A DNA stretch of 64,000 bases. It comes from Ricordea florida (Eukaryota; Cnidaria; Anthozoa; Corallimorpharia; Ricordeidae). The stretch is from assembly GCA_949710005.1 (NCBI GenBank), contig OX453286.1, positions 9,929,484 to 9,993,483 of the forward strand, in the 5' to 3' direction. The notes beneath the pieces are model-generated. The model saw nothing but the letters and a program-made list of their open reading frames with translations, did not search any database and was not told where the DNA came from. Made by a program: the position numbers and the translations under genes. This document shows positions 3,836 through 63,525 of the stretch, in pieces; positions within the stretch are counted from its first letter, which is position 1, and each line of letters opens with the position of its first letter.

Positions 3836-6313
3836 TCAAGCATCAGAAAATCTAGAGGTGTGCCTTGCAATAACGTCTGCTTTATCTTGCCGAGGGGTGC
3901 AGGCAATGTCGCGTGGAATATGTGGTGCTGTGAGAGTGGCACTTCTTTCAGCAGCGTCTTGACTCTTTCTTTCAACAATTGCATCCAGCAGCGGGCGTAC
4001 ATGATCCCTTGTTGTCTTCTCCATAATTGGTTTAGCAATTCATTCCTTACTTCTTTTGGGGAAGACCACCTTGTAACAAAGCTCTCTCTTGTTGTCTCCC
4101 CTTGAAGCAGTGGCATGGTCTCTGCTGGTGTTGGCATTGTTGTCAAGGGCTGCCAGCTTTGTTCGAGCAACCATGCCCTTATTCCAAAAGTGCTGTCGTT
4201 TGGGGAGGTATTTCGTCTGGACGCTGTGGTACACCTCCAAAGATCCAGTGTGACAGCTGAGTGTCAACTGCTGGATGTCTTTCAGTAGAGTTTTGTCAAA
4301 TACTACTTCTTTTAATGCCTCATGTGCTGGTGAGCCTGGCCTTAGCCACCTCTTGGTTCTGGCCACATTTCTTGGGATGGGTGGGTGGGGACATTCATGA
4401 TAAAGATCTACACTGTCCCAGTGATGGATGTTGGCAGTGTGGTGGACAATAGATATCCACTTCTCCCGTAAGAGTTCCTTGTCCCCATTGCATGTGTCGG
4501 CACACCAGCAGAGATGGTTGGAACTGACTTGATCCAGGGAAAAAGATCACCACAGCTTTTTTCTTTGCCTTTTCAGTTAGTTTTTAAGTGACTTTTTGTT
4601 AAATGCCACACATCAAATTGGTGATCCACATCAGGGTAGTTTCTTTTCATGTCAGACTTAATTCTTACATGGCGATCAGTTGTCACAACCTTCACTTTAG
4701 CCCCCCTTACCCTGAATATTTTCCATGCACCTTTTAGATCCCTCTTTCTCCAAGGCATTACTGCTGGTCACGTCACTGACCTGAACAATTTGGAAGTCAA
4801 CTATTTTGTCGCTGCTATGATCAATCACCGTGTAGGTGCCATATTTTGTGTTGTGTCCTGGACTGTCACAACAACCATCTCCAGAAAGCCACAACTCTGT
4901 GTCTTTCAACTCGTTAAAAACAGAATTTTGTTCTCCCTCCCAAACTTCATTAATTACTGGAAATAAATATGAGTCTTGAATGTTACAAAATGTTTTCTCA
5001 CTGAAGAAGGATAACCTTAATATTTCAGCTAAATTGGTGTAGGTGGCTCCCCTTAGAAGAATTGATGAGGACATCAAAAGGTTTCCAGCAGCCATCCATT
5101 TGATCATTGGCTGGGTGTTCCAGAAGTAGGTGTGACCATTTAAGCACTTAAGTGTAACAAACAACTGAGAACCCTGGGTGGATTCATGCCTTTTTCTTAT
5201 GCCTGCACCACACTCGGGGCATCTTTTAAAAAGCTTAACTAATTCTGCTTTGATAACAAGGAACTTAATATCATCTTGTGGGTAGACAGTTTCTGAGTCT
5301 TCAGGTTCTGACTGTGAATTGTTTGAGTGATCTGACATTTCATCATTTTTCAATGGTATGTAAGATGGATCCTTTTGAGGTGACTTGTCTACGTTGATTT
5401 CCTGTTCATGGGAAGGGTCCACTTCATCAGGAGAGGTCACTCCCTCACTGTGGTAGTTTTCTTCAGTTTGAGTACTTTGGTCACACATGATCACATCAAA
5501 TGAAGACTTGTACGTTTGGGACTGGGTTGATTTCAGCATAAGTTGTGCTCCTCGTGTGGTAATTTGACACCCAACATCACTGGGAAGCTTATGTGTCGCT
5601 ACACTTGTTTGATTTGCTTTCATCGGCTCCAAATTAAGTTGTTTCAACGGCCCCTCGAATGTAGCCTCACTATGATCTATGCCCTGGGAATTTGGACAGC
5701 CAACTTCCGGGTCACATTCACTGGAGGTACTAGCTACAGGTTGTTCATTTGCACCCTGGGAGGTTTGGAAGGCAGCTGCTGAATTACATTCAGCAGAGTT
5801 ACTTGGTTCCACGACATTATTAGGGAAAACACTGTGCGTCGTGGTGAGCGATGCAATATACTGCAAACCAAAGCAGACATTCCGTGACTTCAGCAATTGC
5901 ATGAGCCTTCCCACTACATTTAACATTAAAAGTACTTCGAGTTGCAGGTAGCTAAAATTCATTCAAATTCTTACCTCTCTCTTTGCTCTGTACTGCAAAC
6001 GGTTTTCAGACGATAATCGAGGTTTCTTGCTTGGCCGATGGACAAAAATTGTTGGTATAGCATCCGGCTTCAATGTACGTTTTGCTTTCAACCTAAGTAG
6101 TTCTGCTTTAAAATCACGTTCAAAGCAGTCAGGCTCGAAATGATCGGAACACAACCGAGTATCTTTGATAACCACTAAGTCGACTAGGGATATTTTTGCT
6201 AACCACTCTTGCAAGAGAGAACCTTTTGTAGGAAGACGGCGGAAACTTATTCCGTGCTCCTTTCTAACAGATCGAGAACCATTCGAGCATCCAACAGCAC
6301 AACAATACACCAT
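3836..6313 (-). pseudogene. THAP-domain transposase-like gene, decayed
   Basis: The 5' exon starts at 6313 (MVYCCAVGCSNGS) and encodes a THAP C2CH zinc finger with CSDHF and LKPDAIPTIF motifs. A donor after AKRE (about 5972) and an acceptor near 5950 mark one intron. The long second exon has an acidic linker with a CDQSTQTEE motif, a zinc-ribbon-like CPECGAG...CLNGHTYFW segment, and a transposase-like core: GDGCCDSPGHNTKYG, TTDRHVRI and HQFDVWH, which I read as candidate acidic catalytic positions. The frame shifts near 4740 and again near 4530. It then continues through SNHLCWCAD and KYLPKRQHFWNKGM to an in-frame TGA at about 4040-4042, where a Trp codon is likely, and resumes to 3836. Two frameshifts and a stop make it a pseudogene. 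The family resembles the THAP-containing multicopy transposases of cnidarians, possibly Kolobok-like, but that placement is uncertain. Confidence 0.75.
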
Positions 6314-18114: not shown

Positions 18115-18771
18115 ACAGATTGTCACATAAAATCGAGGCATGGAAAATTGCAAACGTTACGTTTTTGGGAAGTTGTTTTATAGGTGTTGCTTTTGAGACG
18201 ATTTGCTGTGATTGTGAAGATTTTTCAAGATCTATTTAAATTCATATTGCCGTGAAGATAAGATGAGTTGCGTTATATTTTATACTGTTCAGTTTTTGGA
18301 CGGTTAATTTTTCCAGTAAACCACTTTCACTTTTTGAAGGAGCTGTTTGATTTATTTCAATTTACGGAGCTGATCTACTACAACTCAATGCAAACTTCCC
18401 AAAAAACGTCCACACGAATTTACATTTTGTAACCTAAAATTATACACTCTCGTTCCAGTACCTTCCCTATTGATGCTATTGATGAAAGCTGAACAAATTG
18501 AAAACATCTTCAAAATCGATAAATAAACAAATCCTTTATCGTGCTTGTGCTATTATTTTCTTACCTTGTCTATTTCACAGCTCGTTTATGTTTATTAAAA
18601 AAAACATGTCTCACTTACACGGGTATTGAACTTGAAAATAAATGAATTTAAACGTGAAAAAGCAGGCTTCAAAAGCACACGTGATGCCGACATGTTCATT
18701 TCATGGCTCCGCATAATTAAAGGCGCGACAAGGAGAGGTGATTGTGAGGGTGTCAATGGGGTTAACTGCTT

Positions 18772-18866
18772 AGCGTATAAAGGCCTTTTTTCGCTATCGT
18801 AAGCGTATAAAGTACAAAATATTAGCTGACAAGCGTATAAAAGCATGTGATTTTTAAGCGTATATG
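18772..18866 (+). repeat. Left subterminal repeat array
   Basis: Three exact copies of agcgtataaa at 18772, 18802 and 18832, plus a variant (agcgtatatg) at 18857, lie directly inside the left TIR. The spacing of 30, 30 and 25 bases suggests phased protein-binding sites. Confidence 0.75.
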
Positions 18867-19158
18867 GAGCAAAGCCGACCAATACAAGTTAGAAATTGAT
18901 AAAAAAAGATAAACATTTTTTGAGAATAACAAGATAATTGTGAAATAAAAAAGAAAGAAATGTTTCTTGTCAATATTTACTTCGTTTAGACTTCGCCGTT
19001 ACCCCTTTAGCCGTTATATTGCCGTCGTATTGCTGTCATGATCTGTCATGGGGTCGATGTGACGTTTTTTCTCCGCGCCTGCATTCACCCTGCCTGCGGT
19101 TGTGTTTCTCAATCCCAGTCTCCTCTCTCCTTGTTTGCACGATCTTGCAAGACTTGCC

Positions 19159-22100
19159 ATGGCGTCCATTCATGGCATAATTACTTTATACAGAAACTCA
19201 GATGTCATAGACCGTTTTCGTTCTAGAATATTATTCAAGGAGGATATGCAAAGTTTAAATGTGTTTAGACGCCACTTAGATTCATTTCTCGGCTTGAAAG
19301 AGAAGGCTAAAGAGGTTGGGATAAGCGCTTACGAAATCAAATTGTTTCGACTCGCTCGAATAAAAACAGAAGGAGGAGAAAAGACAGAAAATTATGCAAT
19401 CTACACTCAAGATCAATGGGACATGGAGAGGCCACTACTTTTGGGAAGTTCGGGAAGTGAACTGAACGGTGGGTATCCATATTTGACATATTTGATCATA
19501 TTTGATCATAAATATTATTTGAGTTTTTCAAAGTTTGGACTTTTTGAATTCTCCATTTTATAATGACTGTGTTACTTATGAAGTTAAATGTTCAATGGTC
19601 TTTTATTGCAGTTCACGTGGTTGAAAAGATAACACTTCTTGGAACTGCTGGAAAGACTGTTGTTATTGAAATGAAAAGAAATAAAAGAAGCGAATGTGTT
19701 GAAACCACTAAAAAACCTCCAAAGGCCTTGCAAAGAAAGAGGAAAGCTGAAGCTGAAGAAGACAAACTTGTCAAAACCAAGATTCGCAAAGCAGAAACAT
19801 TTGCACGTAATGAACGACAGGAAAAGGAGATGAAAGAGTTTAATGCAGGTATGATGGTTACTTTAAGTCTTCGAGGGCTAAACGTTTTATCATATTTGGT
19901 CTACAAACTTCAAACCGTGGCTTTCTTAGATGTACAGCTTTTCTGTACGGAAAAGTCAGCACTAAATTATCGGAATTTATACCATTCCTTTTGCTAAACA
20001 TGATTTTTTTCTTTTTGTGGCAGAACTTCGGAAACTTGCTGGTAGCAGTGCCATTGACGAAATGCATGTTAAATGTGGATCGTGCAAAGAAACAAAAGTT
20101 ATTGCAGGAGACCGAAGTACTTCTGGGAAAGCACAACACTTCATCGCCAGTAAGTAGGCAAACGGTGTAACAGCAGATCTAGAATAATTTACTATCCTTA
20201 GGACACTTTCTATAGTCGCAATAGACCGTGTGCAGTCACAATCTTATTTTTATTCAAAGTTAGTATGGTGGCACGCATAACACGCGAGTTGCAAACACGA
20301 CAAGGGTCCGACAAGTGAGGGCGGAAGCCCACTCGAGTTGCACCCACTATCTTTGAAAAAATTATAATAAGAGACTGTTGGCAGTCTATAGTATCAACAA
20401 GAGGACATATCAGTACCTAATGTTGACTCTACAGATCAAAGTATTGAAGAGGATCTAACAAACATAGATGAAACGTATGTGTACTGATGTTTGGTCATGT
20501 TTCAGAGTTATTTAAAGATGCAAAAAAACTCAGCTATACAGTATTACAGTTCTTATAACTTAAGAAAGACTGGAACTAAACCTAATCATTAAATTAAAAA
20601 AAAAACAATTTGCACCAACTTGTTGGGTTGTTTAATTTGTGTCGTTATATAAATAAAGACATTTAAACCATAACAGAAATTGTAAATTATTTGTCTTATA
20701 TCTGGAAAGGGAAAAGGAAAACATGTGGCTATAAATAGCTCGTGCTCAGTGTTACAAGTTCATTCAGTATTGCTAATGCATCCATTTCAATGACTGGAAC
20801 GTTTCTGCATTACAGCTTTGATGAAACTTCGTTGTCTGCTACATATACTGGCCCTAGCCTAACCATGATGAGTGTACTGGAGAATCTGGAGACACTGAAG
20901 AGTGTAGGGGGAAAAATGAACAGAATTCTTTGCACATGGGATCTTTCTTGTCTTACTCAGGAGACATTTATAGCACCAAAGTTGACAAAGTTGAATCATC
21001 AGACGAAAGCAGCGACAGTCAGGAGAATGACGAGGATGATCTTGTTGTTTTTCCATGGTATGTTTCCCCTTTTGAAATTGAAATTTGTAGCTGAGATTCA
21101 GAAAGCGCCTAACTAGGGTTCTAACTATGTCACTTGATATTTGTTTTGTTTGTAGGTCATTGGCCTCCGCTGATCCTCTTGTTAACAGCCTAAACATTTT
21201 AATTCAAAGTGGAAAATTACCGAAAGATTGCATCTATTATAAGTTTGTTGACAATACAGTGCGATATGCACTTGTAGATTGGTCGAAGAAGAACGACTTT
21301 CAGTGGGATAAAAATGCTTTGGAGTTTTTCCAGAGTATTAAATATCTTGGTGGAGCAGCCACTGCAAAATTTGTGCGTGGTCCATGCCACCATGGAACAG
21401 GTAGAGGGGGCATCAAATTATTCAACTTTTCAGACGCAAATCTTGGTGGGCCATCCGATAATGCCCTAAAGAAAGTTCAGTCAGGATACACTCCCTTTAG
21501 CGGTGTGTTAAAATGCCTCTTGGAAGCTTTCCACGCCCTTGTGTTTGATGGTCCAAGTCCTTCAACTCCTGTTATCAAAACAAATCACGTTGAAACTGTA
21601 ACGTGTGTCATGGCAGTGGATGGTACTGCATTAAAGCCATGCATACAGTTTGATGATCGCCTTAAACTCTGTGTGGGGCTCTCAGAACCTGTTGATTTGG
21701 ATTTTATTACAAAACATCCCCAGTTGTCAAGTGGTGAATTAAAAGGCAAGTTTGTCACAGAAGCCGTTCCATACTTTCTCACAAGCACAGATATGAAAAA
21801 TGCAATGCCTGTGGCTGTAGAATATGCCACCAAGTCCAAAACTGGAGAGCAAGTGAAAGCGTCCATGGTTGAAAAAATTAGAAGAGTACAAGTGTGTCGT
21901 AAATGCTGCCACGATGCTAAGAGCAACAACCTAACTCTATCCTCAAGTGAAGATTATTGTAATGCTTATTGTGATGTATGTTGGACCACGGCGAAGGTGT
22001 GTACAGCCTGTGAAAGAATGGGACAAACTTCACACATTCCCGCCTTGCGCGCCTGTTCCCAGTGCCTGAATGGCAGGATCAAGTGCCAAAAGGTTGCAGT

Positions 22101-22996
22101 GGCTGTGGTAACAACTGATTGTGAGGAATGCAACAAACAGGCCCTTAGTCAACTGCATGACGATGCAGCAGAACAAAATCTTCCTTCCGATTTGTATCTA
22201 CTTTCTGCCATGCCAGATGTTGTTCATTTAGGAAAAAGCCTTAAATGCAGCTGGAGTAATTGGGTTCTCTGGTTCAATGGCACTCGATCTACACTAGCTA
22301 TATTGTACAACTTGAGAAGGGAAGGAGAGCCAGAGTTACGCACGAAGTTGAAAAAGTTGTTGACCGAAGAATCCGTGAGAAATAAAGACCGAATGGCTGT
22401 CGATCCTATTCTTCTGCTGACCAAGCCAGAGCTCCTAGAAGTTCTTTCATCAGCAGAACGGGTTGTCTACACCATATATAGTGCCTGAAAAATACCGTAT
22501 GTGGAAAAGCAATCGTCCTGGCATGTACCCCCATCCTCTTTCTGTAGGGTGTGGTCCCTTTGGCAAGTTACTTGTGCTTGATTTTGAACCACTAACAAAC
22601 ACAAGCAAGCTGCTTCTGGTGCGCCTTCATTCCCCAGCAGATGTAAATGTCCTTGTGGAAGGCCTTGAAAATGCCAAGTCTGTGGCATACACTGGTGGCG
22701 TGTCTTATTGCACGCAGTCGAGTGGAACTATCCGTTATGTTCCCATTGACAAGGAAGTAAGGCTGAGAATAGGTGCACTCAAGACGAAAGTTGATCTACA
22801 AACAAAACTACAGGAGTTCCACTTATCAACAGAAGGAACTGTGAAACAGTTAAGGGAAAGACTGGCAAGTCATCTACATGAAGTGGAAATATCATACATC
22901 ATCGCTGGTGTCAAGTTTGATAAGCCAACGGCTATTTGTAGTCTAAGCGAAGATATTCTGTTAGTTGCAGACGATGGACACGGCTGTTTTTGGTAA
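19159..22996 (+). pseudogene. Cysteine-rich DDE-like transposase candidate with SAP-like and NHL-like C-terminal parts; multi-exon, one clear frameshift
   Basis: The start ATG at 19159 has a good context (gccATGg). Exons read from GT-AG signals are 19159-19468, 19612-19848, 20024-20149, 20402 to about 20474, an acidic exon ending at 21057 whose 5' edge is unclear, and 21156 onward. The parts in order are a novel N-terminus, a basic KRKAEAEEDK region, a CGSCK knuckle, a Ser/Asp/Glu-rich linker and the main domain. The main domain has VDGTALKP, a large Cys cluster (CRKCC, CDVCW, CTACERMG, CSQC), VVTTDCEECNK and PDVVHLGKSLKCSWSNW. I read the Asp residues as candidate RNase H-fold catalytic positions. 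Near 22476 a TA-rich tract shifts the frame by one, after which IVPEKYRMW continues. A SAP-like helix pair and an NHL-like ILLVADDGHG end the reading. TAA follows at 22994, or a donor (gtaagt). Its position inside the TIRs argues that it is the element's transposase. I do not recognise a named family. Confidence 0.7.
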
Positions 22997-23125
22997 GTTG
23001 TGCTTAGTTTCGTTACTGTAGTTTGATGTATTGTTTAAGAACATTGCAAGCTGGAAAGAGTGCGACTGCAATTTAGAACCACTATAAGACCCTATAAACC
23101 TCTACAGGCCTCAAAATCATGCCAA

Positions 23126-23369
23126 CTAACTGACTAAACAATTTTTTTTGCTGCTTACTGACTAAGTAGCGTTTTTTTACCTGTTTACTGACTAAGGAGC
23201 GTTTTTTTAGCTGCTTACTGACTATAGCTATACCCCATTGACACCCTCCTAACTGACTAAACAATTTTTTGCTGCTTACTGACTAAGTAGCGTTTTTTTA
23301 GCTGTTTACTGACTAAGGAGCGTTTTTTTAGCTGCTTACTGACTATAGCTATACCCCATTGACACCCTC
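23126..23369 (+). repeat. Right subterminal array: ~121-bp tandem duplication including the TIR
   Basis: The unit contains four actgacta motifs about 30 bp apart joined by T-runs (gcgttttttt) and ends with the TIR sequence accccattgacaccctc. It is present twice (about 23126-23249 and 23250-23369) with a few differences in T-run length. The element therefore has an internal copy of its own right terminus. Confidence 0.85.
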
Positions 23370-23375
23370 GATTGT

Positions 23376-26199: not shown

Positions 26200-26652
26200 A
26201 TGTCAACAAACAATAGCAGAGAAAATATAATTTGCAGAACACAGGGTTCAGGTGAAGAGCAACAGGAAAGAGAGCGGAAGAGAGCAAGAATTAACTGGGG
26301 AAGAATGAGCGAAGAAGATCGCCAAAGAAGGCGCGCTCGGGAAAGAGAAAGGAGACAAAATTATAGCGAAGAACGCCGACAAGAAGAAAGAGTCCGGGCT
26401 CGAGAAAACAGACAAAATGTTAACGAAGAACGCCGAGAAGCGGAAAGACTCCGTGCTGTGGAAAACAGACAAAATTGTAGCGAAGAATGCCCAGAAGCGG
26501 AAAGACTCCGTACTGTGGAAAACAGAAAAAATTTTAGCGAAGAACGCCGAGAAGCGGAAACACTCCGTGCTGTGGAAAACAGACAAAATTGTAGCGAAGA
26601 ACGCCGAGATACCCGGCTAAAACCCATGCAAGAGAGAAACCTCGGCTCGTAG
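26200..26652 (+). CDS. Charged repeat protein of 19-residue units (150 aa), function unknown
   Basis: After a short N-terminus (MSTNNSRENIICRTQG) the frame is almost entirely Arg/Glu-rich. From about residue 45 it repeats a 19-residue unit approximating NRQNCSEERREAERLRAVE, five to six times. At DNA level this is a 57-bp tandem repeat (about 26340-26615) that keeps the frame open on both strands. The composition predicts a long single helix. Similar Arg/Glu repeats occur at the N-termini of some animal Helitron and other mobile-element proteins, but nothing downstream supports that identity. It could be a free-standing ORF, the first exon of a larger gene, or a non-coding minisatellite. Confidence 0.35.
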   Translation: MSTNNSRENIICRTQGSGEEQQERERKRARINWGRMSEEDRQRRRARERERRQNYSEERRQEERVRARENRQNVNEERREAERLRAVENRQNCSEECPEAERLRTVENRKNFSEERREAETLRAVENRQNCSEERRDTRLKPMQERNLGS

Positions 26653-49900: not shown

Positions 49901-49973
49901 GCCTCCGTAGCTTAATGGATAAGGCGTCGGCCTCCTAAGCCGAAGATTGCGGGTTTGAGTCCCGTCGGAGGTG
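49901..49973 (+). tRNA. tRNA-Arg(CCT), copy 1, probably degraded
   Basis: A 73-base cloverleaf with anticodon CCT and good acceptor and anticodon stems. The T-loop reads TTTGAGT instead of TTCGAGT, changing the invariant C56 and weakening box B. The D-loop region has cttaatgg instead of cctaatgg. A TTTT pol III stop follows within 10 bases. Confidence 0.75.
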
Positions 49974-51805
49974 AAATGTTTTAATCCAGATCACAATTTT
50001 AAGTCCCTGAAATTCATATTACAGTCAGATGGTTAAAGGCAGGAGTATATCAATGATATCGACCTCCAGTTAACTCACAACAGTCATTGTGGGAATCTAG
50101 TTTTCTTCGTCTTAGCTAAAGATGTTACTTGTAAATAGAAAACATAAAAATTCCACAATCGAAGTAGTAATGTAACTTGTGATCACTATCAAAGACTATT
50201 GTTCTCTCTCTCTTCAATTTATCCCTGTCAATTCAAATTAGAGATCCCTTGTCAATTCCTGTCGATGAGGATCACTTTTGTTACAATGTAAAGGCTGCAG
50301 CGTAAGAAATATTGAGGTTTGTCAAAATGACAGGCTAAAATCCGTAAAACAATCCAGAGAGGGCAATAGGATTTGATGGGGAGCAGTAATTATTTCATTT
50401 GACTACTTTACGCCCGCATAAATGTTCAGAATTTCACATTTGTTGAATATAGCTCTGAATGCAACATTGACAGCCAGCACCCTTAGATTTCTTAATGTAA
50501 TTTTTAACGACATTATGATATCTTGGCTACAAGCAGTAGCTGTAGGTATATGTAAGTAAAACAAGACTTAAGTAAATTACCTGCTTGATCAGCTGGTGAG
50601 CAGCGTTGGCGCAGTGTTTTAAAATTCCAACAAAATCTATGAAAATGCTAACATGTGAATGGTCCGTTCCGGGTAATTGTTCTGAATGGAATTAGAATTA
50701 TTTTGTATGCTACTATGTATTAAGGGAAAGCGCACCTGAAAAAAAAATTTTCTTTGATTGTCACTGCTCGTGTTTCCTTTGCTTACCGAGAATTGATGGT
50801 AACCATGGTAACTATAGAACTGGACAAGACACAGTTGAACCCCGCTATCTCGAAAATAGTTTGAGCTATGTACAAGGCTCGAAATGATCCCTGCTCCGAA
50901 ATGATCCAAACCCCGAAATGATTCCCACTTTAACTTCTTTTTCAGGCGGGCTTTGAAATAATTATGATTCCCAAGTAATTCCAGTAATGACATCTGGAAC
51001 CGGGAGTTGTAGAATGCGCCTATAAAAAAATGTTAAACACGTAAATCACCATTGTACTGAATAGTTTAAAACTGCGTAGCGTAACATCAACAAGAGTGTC
51101 TCTTAAATTGTATAGGAAGGGAAAAAGAATTTTTAACGCACACAAGTTGACTATTACTCAAAGTCTTGCGTCCTCTGTAAAAGCCGACAAAATCTGTGTT
51201 TTAGATCTTCGTTTTTAGCAATCTCAAGTTGTTCTTGCTCCTTAACTTGAAATCGGCAATCCACTTCAAAAACACTGCTAATTGGGAATTGGCAAAATGA
51301 TAGTCTATTACAGTTTCCCGAATACAATCGCTGATAGGTTCTAGTATGCACAATGCGTCTTTTAATATGGAACCGGGAGTTGTAGAATGCGCAAAGTTAA
51401 TGAAATTCATAAATATAACTTGTATTTTTGCCTATACAAAAATTTTAAACACGTAAATCATCATTGTACTGAATAGTTTAAAACTGCACAGGGTAACATC
51501 AACCAGAGTGTCCGTTAAATTGTATAGGAAGGGAAAAAGCATTTTTTACACACACGAGTCGACTCTTATTCAAAGTCTTGCGTCCTCTGTAAAAGCCGAC
51601 AAAATCTGTGTTTTTGATCTTCGCTTTTAGCAATCTCCAACTGTTCTGGCTCCTTAACTTGAAATCGGCAATCCACTTCAAAAACACTGCTAATGGGGAA
51701 TTGGCAAAATGATAGTCTATTACAGTTTTCCGAATACAATCACTGATAGGTTCCAGTATGCACAATGCGTCTTCTAATATGTATCTCAGATTGTAGTCGC
51801 CGAAA

Positions 51806-51878
51806 GCCTCCGTAGCCTAATGGATAAGGCGTTGGCCTCCTAAGCCGAAGATCGCGGGTTCGAGTCCCGTAGGAGGTG
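51806..51878 (+). tRNA. tRNA-Arg(CCT), copy 2
   Basis: 73 bases, anticodon CCT, box B GGTTCGAGTCC intact. The last acceptor-stem pair is G-A (cccgtaggaggtg), one mismatch compared with the common version. It has a TTTT stop downstream. Confidence 0.88.
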
Positions 51879-53697
51879 AAATGTTTTAATCCAGACCGCA
51901 TTTTTACGTCCCTAAAATTAACATTACAATCAGCTCCGGTTAAACGGACGAGTTAATCAATGATATCGACCTCCAGTTAACTCACAACAGTCATTGTGGG
52001 AATCTAGTTTTCTTCGTCTTAGCTAAAGATGTTACTTATAAATAGAAAATATGAAAATTCCACAATCGAAGTTGCAATATAACTTGTGATCACTATCAAG
52101 GGCTATTGTTCTCTCTCTGCAGTGTATCCCTGTCAATTCAAATTAGAGATCCTTGTCAATGAGGATCGGTTTTGTTACAATGTACAGTCTGCAGCGTAAG
52201 AAATATTGAGGTTTGTCCAAATGACAGAATGAAATCTGTAAATCAATCCAGAGAGAGCAGTAGGATTTGACCCTGAGAACCAATTATTTCATTTGACTAC
52301 TTCACGCCAGCATGAATGTTCAGAATTTCACATTTGTTGAATAGCTCTGAATGCAACATTGAAAGCCAGCACCCTGAGATTTCTTAATGTAATTTTTAAC
52401 GACATTATAATGTCTTGGGTACAAGAAGTAGCTGTAGGTATATGTAAGTAAAACAAGACTTAAGTAAATTACCTGCTTGATCAGCTGGTGAGCAGCGTTG
52501 GCGCAGTGTTTTAAAATTCCAACAAAATCTATGAAAATGCTAACATGTAAATGGTCCGTTCTGGGTAATTGTTCTGAATGGAATTAGAATTATTTTGTAT
52601 GCTACTATGTATTAAGGGAAAGCGCACCTGAAAAAAAAATTTTCTTTGATTGTCACTGCTCGTGTTTCCTTTGCTTACCGAGAATTGATGGTAACCATGG
52701 TAACTATAGAACTGGACAAGACACAGTTGAACCCCGCTATCTCGAAAATAGTTTGAGCTATGTACAAGGCTCGAAATGATCCCTGCTCCGAAATGATCCA
52801 AACCCCGAAATGATTCCCACTTTAACTTCTTTTTCACGCGGGCTTTGAAATAATTATGATTCCCAAGTAATTCCAGTAATGACATCTGGAACCGGGAGTT
52901 GTAGAATGCGCCTATAAAAAAATGTTAAACACGTAAATCACCATTGTACTGAATAGTTTAAAACTGCGTAGCGTAACATCAACAAGAGTGTCTCTTAAAT
53001 TGTATAGGAAGGGAAAAAGAATTTTTAACGCACACAAGTTGACTATTACTCAAAGTATTGCGTCCTCTGTAAAAGCCGACAAAATCTGTGTTTTAGATCT
53101 TCGTTTTTAGCAATCTCAAGTTGTTCTTGCTCCTTAACTTGAAATCGGCAATCCACTTCAAAAACACTGCTAATTGGGAATTGGCAAAATGATAGTCTAT
53201 TACAGTTTCCCGAATACAATCGCTGATAGGTTCTAGTATGCACAATGCGTCTTCTAATATGGAACCGGGAGTTGTAGAATGCGCAAAGTTAATGAAATTC
53301 ATAAATATAACTTGTATTTTTGCCTATACAAAAATTTTAAACACGTAAATCATCATTGTACTGAATAGTTTAAAACTGCACAGGGTAACATCAACCAGAG
53401 TGTCCGTTAAATTGTATAGGAAGGGAAAAAGCATTTTTTACACACACGAGTCGACTCTTATTCAAAGTCTTGCGTCCTCTGTAAAAGCCGACAAAATCTG
53501 TGTTTTTGATCTTCGCTTTTAGCAATCTCCAACTGTTCTGGCTCCTTAACTTGAAATCGGCAATCCACTTCAAAAACACTGCTAATGGGGAATTGGCAAA
53601 ATGATAGTCTATTACAGTTTTCCGAATACAATCACTGATAGGTTCCAGTATGCACAATGCGTCTTCTAATATGTATCTCAGATTGTAGTCGCCGAAA

Positions 53698-53770
53698 GCC
53701 TCCGTAGCCTAATGGATAAGGCGTTGGCCTCCTAAGCCGAAGATCGCGGGTTCGAGTCCCGTAGGAGGTG
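53698..53770 (+). tRNA. tRNA-Arg(CCT), copy 3, identical to copy 2
   Basis: It is identical to copy 2, including the acceptor-stem G-A mismatch, because the surrounding 1892-bp unit was recently duplicated. A TTTT stop follows. Confidence 0.88.
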
Positions 53771-55176
53771 AAATGTTTTAATCCAGACCGCATTTTTACG
53801 TCCCTAAAATTAACATTACAATCAGCTCCGGTTAAACGGACGAGTTAATCAATGATATCGACCTCCAGTTAACTCACAACAGTCATTGTGGGAATCTAGT
53901 TTTCTTCGTCTTAGCTAAAGATGTTACTTGTAAATAGAAAATATGAAAATTCCACAATCGAAGTTGCAATATAACTTGTGATCACTATCAAGGGCTATTG
54001 TTCTCTCTCTGCAGTGTATCCCTGTCAATTCAAATTAGAGATCCTTGTCAATGAGGATCGGTTTTGTTACAATGTACAGTCTGCAGCGTAAGAAATATTG
54101 AGGTTTGTCCAAATGACAGAATGAAATCTGTAAATCAATCCAGAGAGAGCAGTAGGATTTGACCCTGAGAACCAATTATTTCATTTGACTACTTCACGCC
54201 AGCATGAATGTTCAGAATTTCACATTTGTTGAATAGCTCTGAATGCAACATTGAAAGCCAGCACCCTGAGATTTCTTAATGTAATTTTTAACGACATTAT
54301 AATGTCTTGGGTACAAGAAGTAGCTGTAGGTATATGTAAGTAAAACAAGACTTGAGTAAATTACCTGCTTGATCAGCTGGTGAGCAGCGTTGGCGCAGTG
54401 TTTTAAAATTCCAACAAAATCTATGAAAATGCTAACATGTGAATGGTCCGTTCCGGGTAATTGTTCTGAATGGAATTAGAATTATGTTGTATTCTACTTG
54501 GTATTAAAAGAAAGCGCACCTGAAAAAAAAAATTTCTTTGATTGTCACTGCTAGTCTTTCCTTTGCTTACCGAGAATTGATGGTAACCATGGTAACTATA
54601 GAACTGGACAAGACACAGTTGAACCCCGCTATCTCGAAAATAGGTTGAGATATGTACAAGGCTCGAAATGATCCCTGCTCCGAAATGATCCAAACCCCGA
54701 AATGATCCCCACTTTAACTTCTTTTTCAGGCGGGCTTTGAAATGATTATGATTCCCAAGTAATTCCAGGAATGACATCTGGAACCGGGAGTTGTAGAATG
54801 GACCTATAAAAGATATTAAACACGTAAATCATCATTGTAGTGAATAGTTTAAAACTGCATAGGGTAACATTAACCAGAGTGTCTGTTAAATTGTATAGGA
54901 GGGGAAAAAGCATTTTTTACACACACGAGTCGACTCTTATTCAAAGTCTTGCGACCTCTGTAAAAGCCGACAAAATCTGTGTTTTAGATCTTCGTTTTTA
55001 GCAATCTCCAACTGTTCTTGCTCCTTAACTTGAAATCGGCAATCCACTTATAAAACACTGCTAATGGGGAATTGGCAAAATGATAGTCTACTACAGTTTC
55101 CCGAATACAATCGCTGATAGGTTCCAGTATGCTCAATGCGTCTTCTAATATGAATCTCAGCTTATATTCGCCGTAA

Positions 55177-55249
55177 GCCTCCGTAGCCTAATGGATAAGG
55201 CGTCGGCCTCCTAAGCCGAAGATTGCGGGTTCGAGTCCCGTCGGAGGTG
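55177..55249 (+). tRNA. tRNA-Arg(CCT), copy 4
   Basis: Consensus sequence with all stems paired, the CCT anticodon in loop ctcctaa, and intact boxes A and B. A TTTT stop lies 9 bases downstream. It looks fully functional. Confidence 0.95.
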
Positions 55250-56599
55250 AAATGTTTTAATCCACATCGCATTTTTACGTCCCTGAAATTAACATTACAG
55301 TCAGATCCCGTTAAAGGGAGGAGTTCATTAATGATATCGACCTCCAGTTAACTCACAACAGTGATTGTGGGAATCTAGTTTTCTTCGTCTTAGCTAAACA
55401 TGTTACTTGTAAATAGAAAAGATGAAAATTCCACAATCGAAGTCGCAATATAACTTGTGATTACTATCAAGGGCTATTGTTCTCTCTCTACAATGTACAG
55501 GCTGCAGCGTAAGAAATATTGAGGTTTGTGCAAATGACAGGCTGAAATCTGTAAATCAATCCAGAGAGAGCAGTAGGATTTGACCCTGAGAACCAATTAT
55601 TTCATTTGACTACTTCACGCCAGCATGAATGTTCAGAATTTCACATTTGTTGAATATAGCTCTGAATGCAACATTGACAGCCAGCACCCTTAGATTTCTT
55701 AATGTAATTCTTAACGACATTATGATATCTTGGCTACAAGCAGTAGCTGTAGGTATATGTAAGTAAAACAAGACTTAAGTAAATTACCTGCTTGATCAGC
55801 TGGTGAGCAGCGTTGGCGCAGTGTTTTGAAATTCCAACAAAATCTATGAAAATGCTAACATGTGAATGGTCCGTTCGGGTAATTGTTCTGAATGGAATTA
55901 GAATTATGTTGTATTCTACTTGGTATTAAGGGAAAGCGCACCTGAAAAAAAAATTTTCTTTGACTGTCACTGCTTGTGTTTCCTTTGCTTACCGAGAATT
56001 GATGGTAACCATGGTAACTATAGAACTGGACAAGACACAGTTGAACCCCGCTATCTCCAAAATTGGTTTGAGCTATGTACAAGGCTCGAAATGATCCCTG
56101 CTCCGAAATGATCCAAACCCCGAAATGATCCCCACTTTAACTTCTTTTTCAGGCGGGCTTTAAAATGATTATGATTCCCAAGTAATTCCAGGAATGACAT
56201 CTGGAACCGGGAGTTGTAGAATGGGCCTATAAAAAATGTTAAACACGTAAATCATCATTTTACTGAATAGTTTAAAACTGCATAGGGTAACATCAACCAG
56301 AGTGTGTGTTAAATTGTATAGGAGGGGAAAAAGCATTTTTTACAAACACGAGTCGACTCTTATTCAAAGTCTTGCGTCCTCTGTAAAAGCCGACAAAATC
56401 TGTGTTTTAGATCTTCGTTTTTAGCAATCTCCAACTGTTCTTGCTCCTTAACTTGAAATCGGCAATCCACTTCAAAAACACTGCTAATGGGGAATTGGCA
56501 AAATGATAGTCTACTACAGTTTCCCGAATACAATCGCTGATAGGTTCCAGTATGCACAATGCGTCTTCTAATATGGATCTCAGCTTTTAGTCGCCGAAA

Positions 56600-56671
56600 G
56601 ATTCCGCAGCCTAATGGATAACGCGTCGGCCTCCTAGCCGAAGATTGCGGGTTCGAGTCCCGATGGAGGTG
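56600..56671 (+). pseudogene. tRNA-Arg(CCT) pseudogene, copy 5
   Basis: It starts gattccgcag, so the acceptor stem is mutated. The anticodon loop has lost a base (cctcctagcc instead of cctcctaagcc), the D-stem has aacgcg for aaggcg, and the 3' acceptor strand reads cgatggagg. With 72 bases and several broken pairs it is not a functional tRNA. Confidence 0.9.
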
Positions 56672-57725
56672 TCATGTTTTAATCCAGATCGCAATTTTAC
56701 GTCCCTGAAATTACGATACAGTCAGATCCGGTTAAAGGGAGTAATTTATCAATGCTCTCGATCTCCAGTGAACTCACAACAGTCATTGTGGGTATTTAGC
56801 TTTCTTCGTCTTAGCTAAAGCTGTTACTTGTAAATAGAAAAGATTAAAATTCTACAATCGAAGTAGTCGTGTAACTTGTGATTAATATCAAACAATTATT
56901 GTTCTCTCTCTGCAGTGTATCCCTGTCAATTCAAATTAGAGATCCTTGTCAATTCCTGTCAATGATCATCGCTTCGGAAGTCTAAGAATAAGTTTTGTTT
57001 TACTGTGAGAACCAAAGCAAAACCCTAAAACCGAGACCGAAAGTATATTTTAGTCCCGGCCAAGAGAAAGCTCGGCAAAATCTTCGGGGCGAATACACTT
57101 GCACAAAACTTTTTAAAATTGCATCGAGGTCTATGAAAATGCTAACATGGCAATGGTCCGCTCCGAGTAATACTTCTGAATGCAATACGAATTATGTTGT
57201 TTGCTAAATTGTGCTAAGGGAAAGCGCACCTGAAAAAAAGGAAAGTATTGTGTTAGTGTCACTGCCCGTGTTTCCTTTCGCTTACCGAGAGTTGCTAATA
57301 ACTATGGTAACTATAGTAATGACATCTGGAACCGGGAGTTGTAGAATGCGCCTATAAAAAAATGTTAAACACGTAAATCATCATTGTACTGAATAGTTTA
57401 AAACTGCATAGGGTAACATCAACCAGAGTGTCTGTTAAATTGTATAGGAAAGGAAAAAGCATTTTTTACACACACGAGTCGACTCTTATTCAAAGTCTTG
57501 GGTCCTATTTAAAAGACGACAAAATCTGTGTTTTAGATCTTCGTTTTTAGCAATCTCCAACTGTTCTGGCTCCTTAACTTGAAATGGGCAATCCACTTCA
57601 AAAACACTGCTAATGGGGAATTGGCAAAATGATAGTCTATTACAGTTTCCCGAATACAATCGCTGATATGTTCCAGTATCCACAATGCTTCTTCTAATAT
57701 GGATCTCAGCTTTTAGTCGCCGAAA

Positions 57726-57798
57726 GCCTCCGTAGCCTAATGGATAAGGCGTCGGCCTCCTAAGCCGAAGATTGCGGGTTCGAGTCCCGTCGGAGGTG
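57726..57798 (+). tRNA. tRNA-Arg(CCT), copy 6
   Basis: Consensus 73-base gene, identical to copy 4, with intact box A, box B, anticodon loop and TTTT stop. Confidence 0.95.
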
Positions 57799-59248
57799 AA
57801 ATGTTTTAATCCAGATCGCAATTTTACGTCCCTAAAATTAACATTACAGTCAGATCCGGTAAAAGGGAGGAGTTCATTAATGATATCGACCTCCAGTTAA
57901 CTCACAACAGTGATTGAGGGAATCTAGTTTTCTTCGTTTTAGCTAAACATGTTACTTGTAAATAGAAAAGATAAAAATTCCACAATCGAAGTCGCAATAT
58001 AACTTGTGATCACTATCAAGGGCTATTGTTCTCTCTCTGCAGTGTATCGCTCTCAATTCAAATTAGAGATCCTTGTCGATGAGGATCGGTTTTCGTACAA
58101 TGTACAGGCTGCAGCGTAAGAAATATTGAGGTTTGTCCAAATGACAGGCTGAAATCTGTAAATCAATCCAGAGAGAGCAGTAGGATTTGACCCTGAGAAC
58201 CAATTATTTTATTTGACTACTTCACGCCAGCATGAATGTTCAGAATTTCACATTTGTTGAATATAGCTCTGAATGCAACATTGACAGCCAGCACCCTTAG
58301 ATTTCTTAATGTAATTCTTAACGACATTATGATATCTTGGCTACAAGCAGTAGCTGTAGGCATATGTAAGTAAAACAAGACTTAAGTAAATTACCTGCTT
58401 GATCAGCTGGTGAGCAGCGTTGGCGCAGTGTTTTAAAATTCCAACAAAATCTATGAAAATGCTAACATGTGAATGGCCCGTTCCGGGTAATTGTTCTGAA
58501 TAGAATTACAATTATGTTGTATGCTACTATGTATTAAGGGAAAGCGCACCTGAAAAAAAAAAAATTTTTTTGATTGTTACTGCTCGTGTTTCCTTTGCTT
58601 ACCGAGAATTGATGGTAACCATGGTAACTATAGAACTGGACAAGACACAGTTGAACCCCGCTATCTCGAAAATAGTTTGAGGTATGTACAATGCTCGAAA
58701 TGATCCCTGCTCCGAAATGATCCAAACCCCGAAATGATCCCCACTTTAACTTCTTTTTCACGCGGGCTTTGAAATGATTATGATTCCCAAGTAATTCCAG
58801 GAATGACATCTGGAACCGGGAGTTGTAGAATGCGCAAAGTTAATGAAATTCATAAATATAACTTGTACTTTTGCCTATAAAAAAATGTTAAACACGTAAA
58901 TCATCATTGTACTGAATAGTTTAAAACTGCACAGGGTAACATCAACCATAATGTCTGTTAAATTCTATAGGAGGGGAAAAAGCATATTTTACACACACGA
59001 GTCGACTCTTATTCAAAGTCTTGCGTCCTCTGTAAAAGCCGACAAAATCTGTGTTTTAGATCTTCGTTTTTAGCAATCTCCAACTGTTCTGGCTTCTTAA
59101 CTTGAAATCGGCAATCCACTTCAAAAACACTGCTAATGGGGAATTGGCAAAATGGTGGTCTATTACAGTTTCACGAATACAATCGCTGATATGTTCCACT
59201 ATGCACAATGCGTCTTCTAATATGAATCTCAGCTTATATTCGCCGAAA

Positions 59249-59321
59249 GCCTCCGTAGCCTAATGGATAAGGCGTCGGCCTCCTAAGCCGAAGATTGCGC
59301 GTTCGAGTCCCGTCGGAGGTG
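59249..59321 (+). tRNA. tRNA-Arg(CCT), copy 7, one T-stem mismatch
   Basis: Matches the consensus except attgcgcgttcgag, where a C replaces G in the T-stem and breaks one pair. The box B core GTTCGAGTCC is otherwise kept. Function is possible but reduced. Confidence 0.85.
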
Positions 59322-60772
59322 AAATGTTTTAATCCAGATCGCAATTTTACGTCCCTGAAATTAACATTACAGTCAGATCCGGTTAAAGGGAGGAGTTCAT
59401 CAATGCTATCAACCTCCAGTTAAATCACAACAGTCATTGTGGGAATCTAGTTTTCTTCGTCTTAGCTAAACATGTTACTTGTAAATAGAAAAGATAAAAA
59501 TTCCACAATCGAAGTCGCAATATAACTTGTGATCACTATCAAAGGCTATTGTTCTCTCTCTGCAGTGTATCCCTGTCAATTCAAATTAGAGATCCTTGTC
59601 GATGACGATCGCTTTTGTTACAATGTACAGACTGCAGCGTAAGAAATATTGAGGTTTGTCCAAATGACAGGCTGAAATCTGTAAATCAATCCAGAGAGAG
59701 CAGTAGGATTTGACCAGGAGAACCAATTATTTCATTTGACTACTTCACGCCCGCATGAATGTTCAGAATTTCACATTTGTTGAATATAGCTCTGAATGCA
59801 ACATTGACAGCCAGCACCCTTAGATTTCTTAATGTAATTCTTAACGACATTATGATATCTTGGCTACAAGCAGTAGCTGTAGGTATATGTAAGTAAAACA
59901 AGACTTAAGTAAATTACCTGCTTGATCAGCTGGTGAGCAGCGTTGGCGCAGTGTTTTAAAATTCCAACAAAATCTATGAAAATGCTAACATGTGAATGGT
60001 CCGTTCCGGGTAATTGTTCTGAATGGAATTAGAATTATGTTGTATGCTACTATGTATTAAGGGAAAGCGCACCTGAAAAAAAAAAAAAATTCTTTGATTG
60101 TCACTGCTCGTGTTTCCTTTGCTTACCGAGAATTGATGGTAACCATGGTAACTATAGAACTGGACAAGACACAGTTGAACCCCGCTATCTCGAAAATAGT
60201 TTGAGGTATGTACAATGCTCGAAATGATCCCTGCTCCGAAATGATCCAAACCCCGAAATGATCCCCACTTTAACTTCTTTTTCAGTCTGGCTTTGAAATG
60301 ATTATGATTCCCAAGTAATTCCAGGAATGACATCTGGAACCGGGAGTTGTAGAATGCGCAAAGTTAATCAAAATTAATAAATATAATTTGTATTTTTGCC
60401 TATAAAAAAATTTTAAACACGTAAATCATCATTGTACTGAATAGTTTAAAACTGCACAGGGTAACATCAACCAGATTGTCTGTTAAATTGCATAGGAAGG
60501 GAAAAAGCATTTTTACACACACGAGTCGACTCTTATTCAAAGTCTTGCGTCCTCTGTAAAAGCCGACAAAATCTGTGTTTTAGATCTTCGTTTTTAGCAA
60601 TCTCGAACTGTTGTGGCTCCTTAACTTGAAATCGGCAATCCACTTCAAAGACACTGCTAATGGGACATTGGCAAAATGATAGTCTATTACAGTTTCACGA
60701 ATACATTCGCTGACATCTTCCAGTATGCACAATGCTTCTTCTAATATGAATCTCAGCTTTTAGTCGCCGAAA

Positions 60773-60845
60773 GCCTCCGTAGCCTAATGGATAAGGCGTC
60801 GGCCTCCTAAGCCGAAGATTGCGGGTTCGAGTCCCGTCGGAGGTG
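60773..60845 (+). tRNA. tRNA-Arg(CCT), copy 8
   Basis: Consensus 73-base gene with CCT anticodon, intact internal promoters and TTTT stop. Confidence 0.95.
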
Positions 60846-62100
60846 AAATGTTTTAATCCAGACTGCAATTTTACGTCCCTGACATTAATATTACAGTCAG
60901 ATGGTTAAACGAGTAATTCATCAATGCTGTCGATCTCCAGTTAACTCACAACAGTGATTGTGGGTATTTAGCTTTCTTCGTCTTAGCTAAAGCTGTTGCT
61001 TGTGAATAGAAAAGATGAAAATTCCACAATCGAAGTAGTCATGTAACTTGTGATCAATATCAAACATTTATTGTTCTCTCTCTGCAGTGTATCGCTCTCA
61101 ATTCAAATTACAGAACGTTGTCAATTCCTGTCGATGAGGATCGCTTCGGAAGTCTAAGAATAAGTTTTGTTTTACTGTGACAACCAAAGCAAAACCCTAA
61201 AACCGAGAGCGAAAGTAGATTTTAGTTCCCGGCCGAGAGAAAGCTCGGCAAAATCTGCATGGCGAATACACATGCACAAAACTTTCTAAAATTGCAACAC
61301 GGTCTATGAAAATGCTAACATGGCAATGGTCCACTCCGGGTAATTCTTCTGAATGCAATACGAATCATGGTGTTTGCTACATTGTGCTAAGGGTAAGCGC
61401 ACCTGAAAAAAAGCAAAGCATTTTTTTACTGTCACTGCCCGTGTTTCCTTTCGCTCACCGAGAGTTGCTGGTAACCATGGTATCTATAAAACTGGACAAG
61501 ACACAGTTGAATCCTGCTATCTCCAAAATAGTTTGAGGTATGTACAGGGCCCGAAATGATCCCGGCTCCGAAATGATCCAAGTCCCGAAATGATCCTCAC
61601 TTTAACTTTTCCACGCGGGTTCTGAAATGATTATGATTCGCAAGTAATTCTAAGAATGACATCTGGAACCGGGAAGTGTAGAATGCGCAAGGTAAATGAA
61701 ATTCGTAAATATAACTTATATTTTTGCCAATGAAAAACTTTTCAACGCAAAAATCATCATTGTACTGAATAGTTTAAAACTGCAAAGGGTAACATGAAAA
61801 AGAGTGTCTGTTAAATTGTATAGTAAGGGAAAAAGCATTTTTTGGCCACACGAGTACACTCTTTTTCAAAGTCAGGCGTCCTCTGTAAAAGCCGACAAAA
61901 TCTGTGTTTTAGATCTCCGTTTTTAGCGATCTCCAACTGTTCTGGCTTCTTAACTTGAAATCAGCAATCCACACAAAAAGACTCCTTTTGGGGAATTGGC
62001 AAAATAATAATCTATCACAGTTTTCGGAATACAATCGCTGATAGGTTCCAGTATGCACAATGCATCTTCTAATGTGGATCTCAGCTTAATGTCACTGAAA

Positions 62101-62173
62101 GCCTCCGTAGCCTAATGGATAAGGCGTCGGCCTCCTAAGCCGAAGATTGCGGGTTCGAGTCCCGTCGGAGGTG
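62101..62173 (+). tRNA. tRNA-Arg(CCT), copy 9
   Basis: Consensus 73-base gene with CCT anticodon, intact internal promoters and TTTT stop. It is the last copy in the window. Confidence 0.95.
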
Positions 62174-62816: not shown

Positions 62817-63525
62817 GAGAATAGTTTGAGGTATGTACAGGGCCCGAAATGATCCCGGCTCCGAAATGATCCCGGCTCCGAAATGATCCAGGCCCCGAAA
62901 TGATCCCCACTTTAACTTTTCCACGCGGGCTTCGAAATGATTATGATTCCCAAGTAATTCGAGGAATGACTTCTGGAACCGGGAGTTGTAGAATGTGCAA
63001 AGTGAATGAAATTCATGAATATAACTTATATTTTTGCCAATTAAAAAATGTTAAACGCGAAAGTTATCACTGTACTGAGTAGTTGAAAACTGCAAAAGGT
63101 AACATTAACCAGATTGTCTGTGAAATTGTACAGTAAGGGAGAACAATTTACTGCTCTGGTACAATTCAGATTTTATCTTTCGTCGACAGGTAAGTAACAA
63201 TGATTAACATTCATATTTGTTACCAAAGTTTTTAGTACATTTTGAAATACATGACTGTTTTGACGTTTTTGGAACTACTGAGTATTAGTTGCCTAATTCT
63301 CGTTCCTAAGGATTCTAAAAAAATTATAAGCGAATTAAAATGCCAATTAATTGAGATTGAATTTTGTTTATATTTCACATTCCACGGTTTTAAATGTCAT
63401 TCCAAGAATTATCTGGGGGTTGTTTCGGGGCCAATCAGTGTAGCAAGAGATTGGGATCATTTCGGGGACGGGGTCATTTCGGAGCTAGGATCATTTCGGG
63501 CGCTGTACAGATAGCGGGGATTCGA
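62817..63525. mobile_element. Fold-back element built on ccgaaatgatcc repeats
   Basis: The left arm (62817-62915: ctatctcgagaatag, then several ccgaaatgatcc copies) is inverted at about 63436-63523 (gggatcatttcgggg repeats, then gatagcgggg). The last array unit thus carries both arms of an element of which the other units show only the left arm. The interior (63160-63430) is AT-rich and unrelated to the array. Confidence 0.65.

Follow-up and report, generated by a model that had tools for sequence, protein, structure and literature searches.

A defective transposon in Ricordea florida, probably from an undescribed animal superfamily distantly related to the P element

Introduction

What is the multi-exon gene that lies between short inverted repeats in the genome of the corallimorpharian Ricordea florida, and if it belongs to a transposon, to which superfamily? 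The locus sits in a 64,000-nucleotide stretch (hereafter the window; contig OX453286.1 of assembly GCA_949710005.1, positions 9,929,484 to 9,993,483, forward strand), where an initial annotation had proposed an unnamed type of transposon. We find that positions 18746–23369 of the window form a transposon copy with both ends (4624 bp). Probably this element is a defective cut-and-paste transposon from an animal superfamily that has apparently not been described and is distantly related to the P element as a sister group.

Results

Ends of the window element

The window copy is bounded by perfect 17-bp terminal inverted repeats (TIRs; GAGGGTGTCAATGGGGT), and the hexamer GATTGT flanks it on both sides as a candidate target-site duplication (TSD); the coordinates originally proposed for both were exact. 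Within the 64-kb window, three TIR matches were observed at up to 3 mismatches, against 0.05 expected. The third lies inward of the right end, where a unit of ~121 bp occurs twice in tandem in this copy and so carries the TIR a second time. Each of the six further family A copies with two ends (family A is defined below) has a single TIR at its right end, with no inner copy; L017 has an additional 30-bp repeat there. The end features are as follows.

18740–18745, no strand: left 6-bp TSD GATTGT (sequence and TSD comparison)
18746–18762, plus strand: left TIR, 17 bp (exact inverted match, mismatch search)
18772–18864, plus strand: left subterminal array, motif AGCGTATA, putative transposase sites
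23129–23345, plus strand: right subterminal array, motif ACTGACTA, duplicated in the window copy (repeat and lag analysis)
23232–23248, minus strand: inner TIR copy from the right-end tandem duplication (inverted-repeat match)
23353–23369, minus strand: right TIR, 17 bp (exact inverted match, mismatch search)
23370–23375, no strand: right 6-bp TSD GATTGT (sequence and TSD comparison)

Three families with 6-bp target-site duplications

Searching the host genome (537.8 Mb in 48 contigs) with the left 161 bases of the window element gave 10 matches. Eight of these regions were examined for family A, which comprises seven two-ended copies, the window's included, of 4624, 6314, 1286, 2330, 3131, 6201 and 2018 bp; the right TIR of the 6314-bp copy (L014) deviates in its final base. 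A genome search with protein P0103 yielded at least 44 matches (41 of 427 candidates scored), from which we delimited two further families, B and C, with the TIRs GAGGGTCCTGAAGGGG and GAGGGTCTGGATGGGG, respectively. The TIRs of all three families begin GAGGGT, the termini being GAGGGT..ACCCTC.

Counting TIRs and TSDs over these three families, and TSDs over two-ended copies only, we found an exact 6-bp TSD in 11 of 14 copies and a duplication of 5, 7 or 8 bp in none of the 14; mismatched flank pairs, the control, agreed in 1 of 182. In family A, exact TSDs flank five of seven copies (GATTGT, TTCAAT, TTTTTG, TTAAAA and TCACTT), and none was found at L017 and L019. The family B copies L047, L050 and L051 have TATATA, CTTAGA and TACTAA on both sides, and the family C copies C2, C4 and C7 have GGAGAA, TTAAGT and TTTTAT; a further family C copy, C5 (7.6–7.7 kb, with a damaged gene), agrees at 5 of 6 TSD positions. 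The 11 TSDs are all different, the target sites vary and are mostly AT-rich, and the flanks differ between copies. The element thus shows the general hallmark of cut-and-paste Asp-Asp-Glu (DDE) transposons, inverted ends flanked by duplications of constant length at more than one locus. These 6-bp TSDs indicate past mobility and bear out the duplication length given in the initial annotation.

Copies with one convincing end were excluded from the count. These were C10a–c of family C, for which ~180 bases were examined without a right end appearing and which are probably one duplicated locus, because their left flanks are identical; L038, L045, L046, L048 and L044 (right end only) of family B; L040 of family A (right end only); L020, without a left end; and L021, with an 81% left end and an unconvincing right end. 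A right-end scan of ten loci had given clear ends in L031 (family C), L040 and L044.

Two family A copies are rearranged at the left end. In L019 (1–2194, minus strand), the window's first 37 bp are followed by sequence that resumes at 426, and in L018 a 104-bp stretch (element 294–397) repeats adjoining sequence in inverted orientation. Separately, four family B copies (C3:20280767, C10:9876764, C10:9064879 and C12:8918278) share ~97–99% identity across long stretches, contain open frames of as much as 679 aa and may have been recently active. At L032 and L034, runs of N adjoin the match.

The gene lies between the ends

In the two long family A copies (6.2–6.3 kb), L014 and L018, the gene through its C-terminus lies inside the TIRs. 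P0004 matches L014 over 608 aa at 99.8%, and P0065-like sequence extends to position 5881 of that copy, while L018 has an open 961-aa frame covering P0103 223–1126. The shorter family A copies are internal-deletion derivatives or rearranged.

These copies bear on whether the window simply holds a host gene, either a domesticated transposase or a regulator with NHL and SAP domains (see below), caught by chance between short inverted repeats. The gene is long and multi-exon, its NHL-SAP architecture looks cellular, and many of the genome matches have stop-free open frames. It is nonetheless multi-copy, it lies within TIR-bounded units whose TSDs differ between loci, and the internal-deletion derivatives keep intact ends, all of which makes a host gene highly improbable at this locus. 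Among the genome matches beyond the delimited copies, versions of the gene without TIRs may exist.

Phased subterminal repeats

The initial annotation described 30-bp-periodic repeats with a different motif at each end. In family A, the left motif AGCGTATA begins at element positions 27, 57, 87 and 112, the same four positions being found in four of the six other two-ended copies (L014, L015, L016 and L018), and the right motif ACTGACTA starts 32, 62, ~92 and ~118–120 bases from the right end, varying between copies. Family B repeats one motif, TGGGATTT, on the same strand at both ends (30, 60, 90 and 111 from the right; 29, 79, 126 and 156 from the left), and in family C, too, both ends bear ACTGACA repeats in one orientation. 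Having a separate motif for each end is therefore peculiar to family A among the three.

To score periodicity, we compared lag scores with shuffles at both ends of families A and B and at the right end of family C (95% limits 0.40–0.41; 99.9% limits 0.46–0.47). The family A right end (L014) scored 0.55 at lag 31 (99.9% limit 0.47) and 0.41 at lag 30, which makes its period of 30–31 firm. At lag 30 the right ends of families B and C scored 0.60 and 0.43, and phased right-end repeats thus recur across families. Left ends stayed under the 95% limit at lag 30 (family A 0.38, limit 0.40; family B 0.21); the left-end period of family A comes from exact motif spacing and not from the lag test.

The transposase gene of the window copy

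A Cys-rich gene with at least five introns had been proposed. When the N-terminal exons were joined, including a probable fourth, the resulting protein matched Branchiostoma P0150 and Mytilus P0157 at 3e-18. The gene and its conserved Cys residues are borne out by homology, and five introns are plausible, with homology support confined to the first joins. The parts of the gene are listed below.

19159–19468, plus strand: exon 1, N-terminal domain without Pfam match (homology to P0150 and P0157)
19612–19848, plus strand: exon 2 (homology of the joined exons)
20024–20149, plus strand: exon 3, first half of a putative C2HC zinc finger (KCGSC...; homology)
20435–20474, plus strand: probable exon 4, shortened by a ~190-bp gap relative to L014 (L014 comparison, homology)
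20960–21057, plus strand: probable acidic exon (SSDESSDSQENDEDD), boundaries from GT/AG alone
21156–22488, plus strand: core exon, with helical N-part, RNase H strands, Cys cluster, DxxH and following helices (homology, predicted fold)
21619–21621, plus strand: first catalytic Asp candidate, in VDGTALKP, D156 of the model, invariant (alignment)
21895–22086, plus strand: Cys cluster between the two Asp, ten conserved Cys, candidate zinc module (alignment)
22117–22119, plus strand: second catalytic Asp candidate, in TTDCEECN, D322 (alignment)
22216–22227, plus strand: DxxH motif (PDVVH) after the fifth strand (alignment, model; motif name from excerpts of the Dada paper, PMC3706591)
22478–23011, plus strand: out-of-frame remnant of the SAP domain and NHL-propeller start, similarity stopping at the deletion junction 23012/23013

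This copy is broken, a point absent from the initial annotation. It has a frameshift near 22476 and an in-frame stop at 22994–22996, and relative to L014 it lacks ~190 bp near 20400 and ~1.55 kb at 23012/23013; the second half of the zinc finger also seems to be lost. Judged from its sequence, the window copy is an inactive product of internal deletion and could not make the full protein. A splice donor after HGCFW was ruled out, as the L014 frame continues there and the window has an in-frame stop.

Relatives of the protein

A protein search with the core exon found 100 proteins at E <= 0.001. A profile matched 227 proteins, and the 120 matches listed include full-length relatives of ~1130–1310 aa and proteins from Porites, Desmophyllum, Paramuricea, Oculina, Mytilus, Branchiostoma and Priapulus; the Branchiostoma and Priapulus gene models are incomplete at the C-terminus. 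We take P0129, a match from a Sedimenticola metagenome-assembled genome, as host contamination. Profile A1 yielded no confirmed homologue in IMG/VR and GTDB contigs, and the 17-bp TIR occurs in five IMG/VR contigs (L001–L005), which we judged to be chance.

The relatives share a layout of D, ten Cys, D, DxxH, SAP, NHL propeller and an invariant late E. In an alignment of 31 chosen relatives (A2; P0132 numbering, conservation counted over rows covering the column), the conserved residues are D344 (28/28), the ten Cys (29/29), D510 (30/30), D543 (31/31), H546 (29/31), E1070 (28/28) and H1073 (28/28).

Pfam matches at E <= 1 in the A2 relatives were to SAP (12/31), NHL (12/31) and TNP-like_RNaseH_N (PF21787; 4/31). 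For the last of these, P0132 is the one relative known to exceed the gathering score; P0150 exceeds that of SAP. The corresponding counts for A1 were 7/49, 2/49 and 4/49. Against Pfam, the window's own pieces gave no core match and a sub-threshold SAP. Neither the C half of the TNP-like RNase H nor an integrase-type (rve) domain is among the Pfam families listed for the relatives, and the 25 families listed, of 32 matching the 31 relatives, include no GTP-binding domain (GBD). THAP had no Pfam match in the window N-terminal exons or P0150 (E <= 1), nor in P0157 (E <= 0.1). Two gene models join the protein to other domains, P0143 (Priapulus) to PTB and PDZ and P0157 (Mytilus coruscus) to ALS2CR8, either by fusion or as gene-model artefacts.

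Predicted fold of the core

A first AlphaFold model, of P0015 (730 aa; mean predicted local distance difference test score, pLDDT, 75.5), had propellers among its best rows against the PDB, with RNase H folds absent from the rows listed. The core was therefore modelled alone. By sequence, too, the profile found propellers in the PDB (SOQ1, 1.1e-21; NHLRC2, 1.1e-18), and profiles A2 and A3 found no transposase there. The model of the window core (pLDDT 88) had the P element transposase as its best Foldseek match (7e-6), with Transib among the next (E 0.05); the VIA alignment of the core stops within the GBD region. The core is thus predicted to have a P-element-like RNase H fold, in line with the modified RNase H fold first suggested. 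The two candidate catalytic Asp are supported, and the catalytic Glu is a candidate assigned from conservation.

Placement among known superfamilies

The fold raises the alternative that the element falls within the P superfamily as a divergent but otherwise ordinary member, one that Repbase may already list under 'P'. The P-type core is the best structural match for the predicted core, some relatives carry PF21787, and, going by excerpts of the P and Pdre literature, both the P element and Pdre (THAP9-Pdre) share internal-deletion derivatives and internal transposase sites with our families. However, the P element and zebrafish Pdre have 8-bp TSDs in these excerpts, against 6 bp in families A, B and C, and the Pdre2 TIR is given as CATACC against GAGGGT here. 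The Ricordea protein also differs in the Cys cluster between its Asp residues, in having no THAP detected (by Pfam), and in having SAP and an NHL propeller with no GBD match among the families listed. Because the TSD is 6 bp and no THAP was detected, we did not file the element as P, and consider ordinary P membership rather unlikely.

TSDs are 8 bp in hAT and KDZ and TTAA in Kolobok, and the 6-bp TSDs found here do not agree with membership of these. Transib, among the next Foldseek matches of the core, has a TSD of 5 bp. In RAG1/RAG2, a DDE enzyme is paired with a propeller protein, RAG2; the propeller here is NHL-type and in the same polypeptide.

The 6-bp TSD is in keeping with IS3EU and GingerRoot (excerpts of PMC10045372) or with Dada, which shares 6–7-bp TSDs, introns, Cys motifs and a DxxH between the second D and the E (excerpts of PMC3706591). 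However, in the first source complete IS3EU families always have TA..TA termini (GingerRoot occasionally TG..CA) and an IS3/IS481-like transposase, and here the ends are GAGGGT..ACCCTC and rve is missing from the Pfam families listed. In the second, the Dada-U6 and Dada-U1 families are without TIRs and insertions of Dada lie in snRNA or tRNA genes, in contrast to the 17-bp TIRs, varied TSDs and differing flanks found here. Going by its end sequences, the element is excluded from both groups, for which the initial annotation had seen no obvious match, and we give such membership very little credence. Coral CMITE elements (PMC2872659) are also different, being tied to piggyBac in the published excerpts.

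We found no description of the element in the literature searched, with Repbase and Dfam outside the search. The claim of an unnamed type holds to that extent, qualified by the kinship to the P element and PF21787.

Discussion

We therefore return to the window element as a probable defective member of an undescribed superfamily beside P. Several points weaken this reading. Both long copies are damaged: in L014, the P0103 match contains two stops and is preceded by a frame change, and L018 has lost ~200 bp of the core exon, including the first Asp. The reading must also leave room for P membership, the P element being the nearest solved fold and PF21787 occurring in some relatives. Its weakest step is the putative splitting of the RNase H fold by the propeller.

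We propose that the element works like P. Specific contact with the subterminal repeats would come from the N-terminal domain and the putative zinc finger in it, and the protein would pair both ends, cut by DDE chemistry and join the ends to target phosphates 6 bp apart. In the P element, the GBD is inserted between β5 and α4, according to excerpts of the published work. The propeller and SAP would be inserted after the fifth strand and before the catalytic-Glu helix, thus occupying the position of that GBD; we put them there because the invariant E-x2-H comes after the propeller. The window copy would move only in trans.

For the fuller proposal we see even chances: a new superfamily with an RNase H domain split by SAP and an NHL propeller, right-end sites phased at 30 bp (~three helical turns), and a built-in propeller that may play a part like that of RAG2, which is a separate protein. 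NHL propellers are better known for RNA binding, and the RAG2 propeller for histone tails.

In the proteins of this family that were scanned, Pfam recognizes the catalytic core weakly or not at all, which leaves the family nameless in annotation. Recognizing it would place a further lineage next to the P element, with another kind of insertion domain, the propeller seeming to fill the place of the GBD. How TSD length and end pairing have changed among elements with a shared fold, and whether the geometry is dictated by phased subterminal sites, could then be tested.

Elsewhere in the window, eight tRNA-Arg predictions (anticodon CCT, plus strand) form an array at 49901–62173 with starts ~1.3–2.5 kb apart. 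A tandem repeat at 62844–62907 has a 17-bp unit in 3.8 copies, and another at 26353–26609 has a 57-bp unit in 4.5 copies (87% matches) and is perhaps coding, since 57 is a multiple of three.

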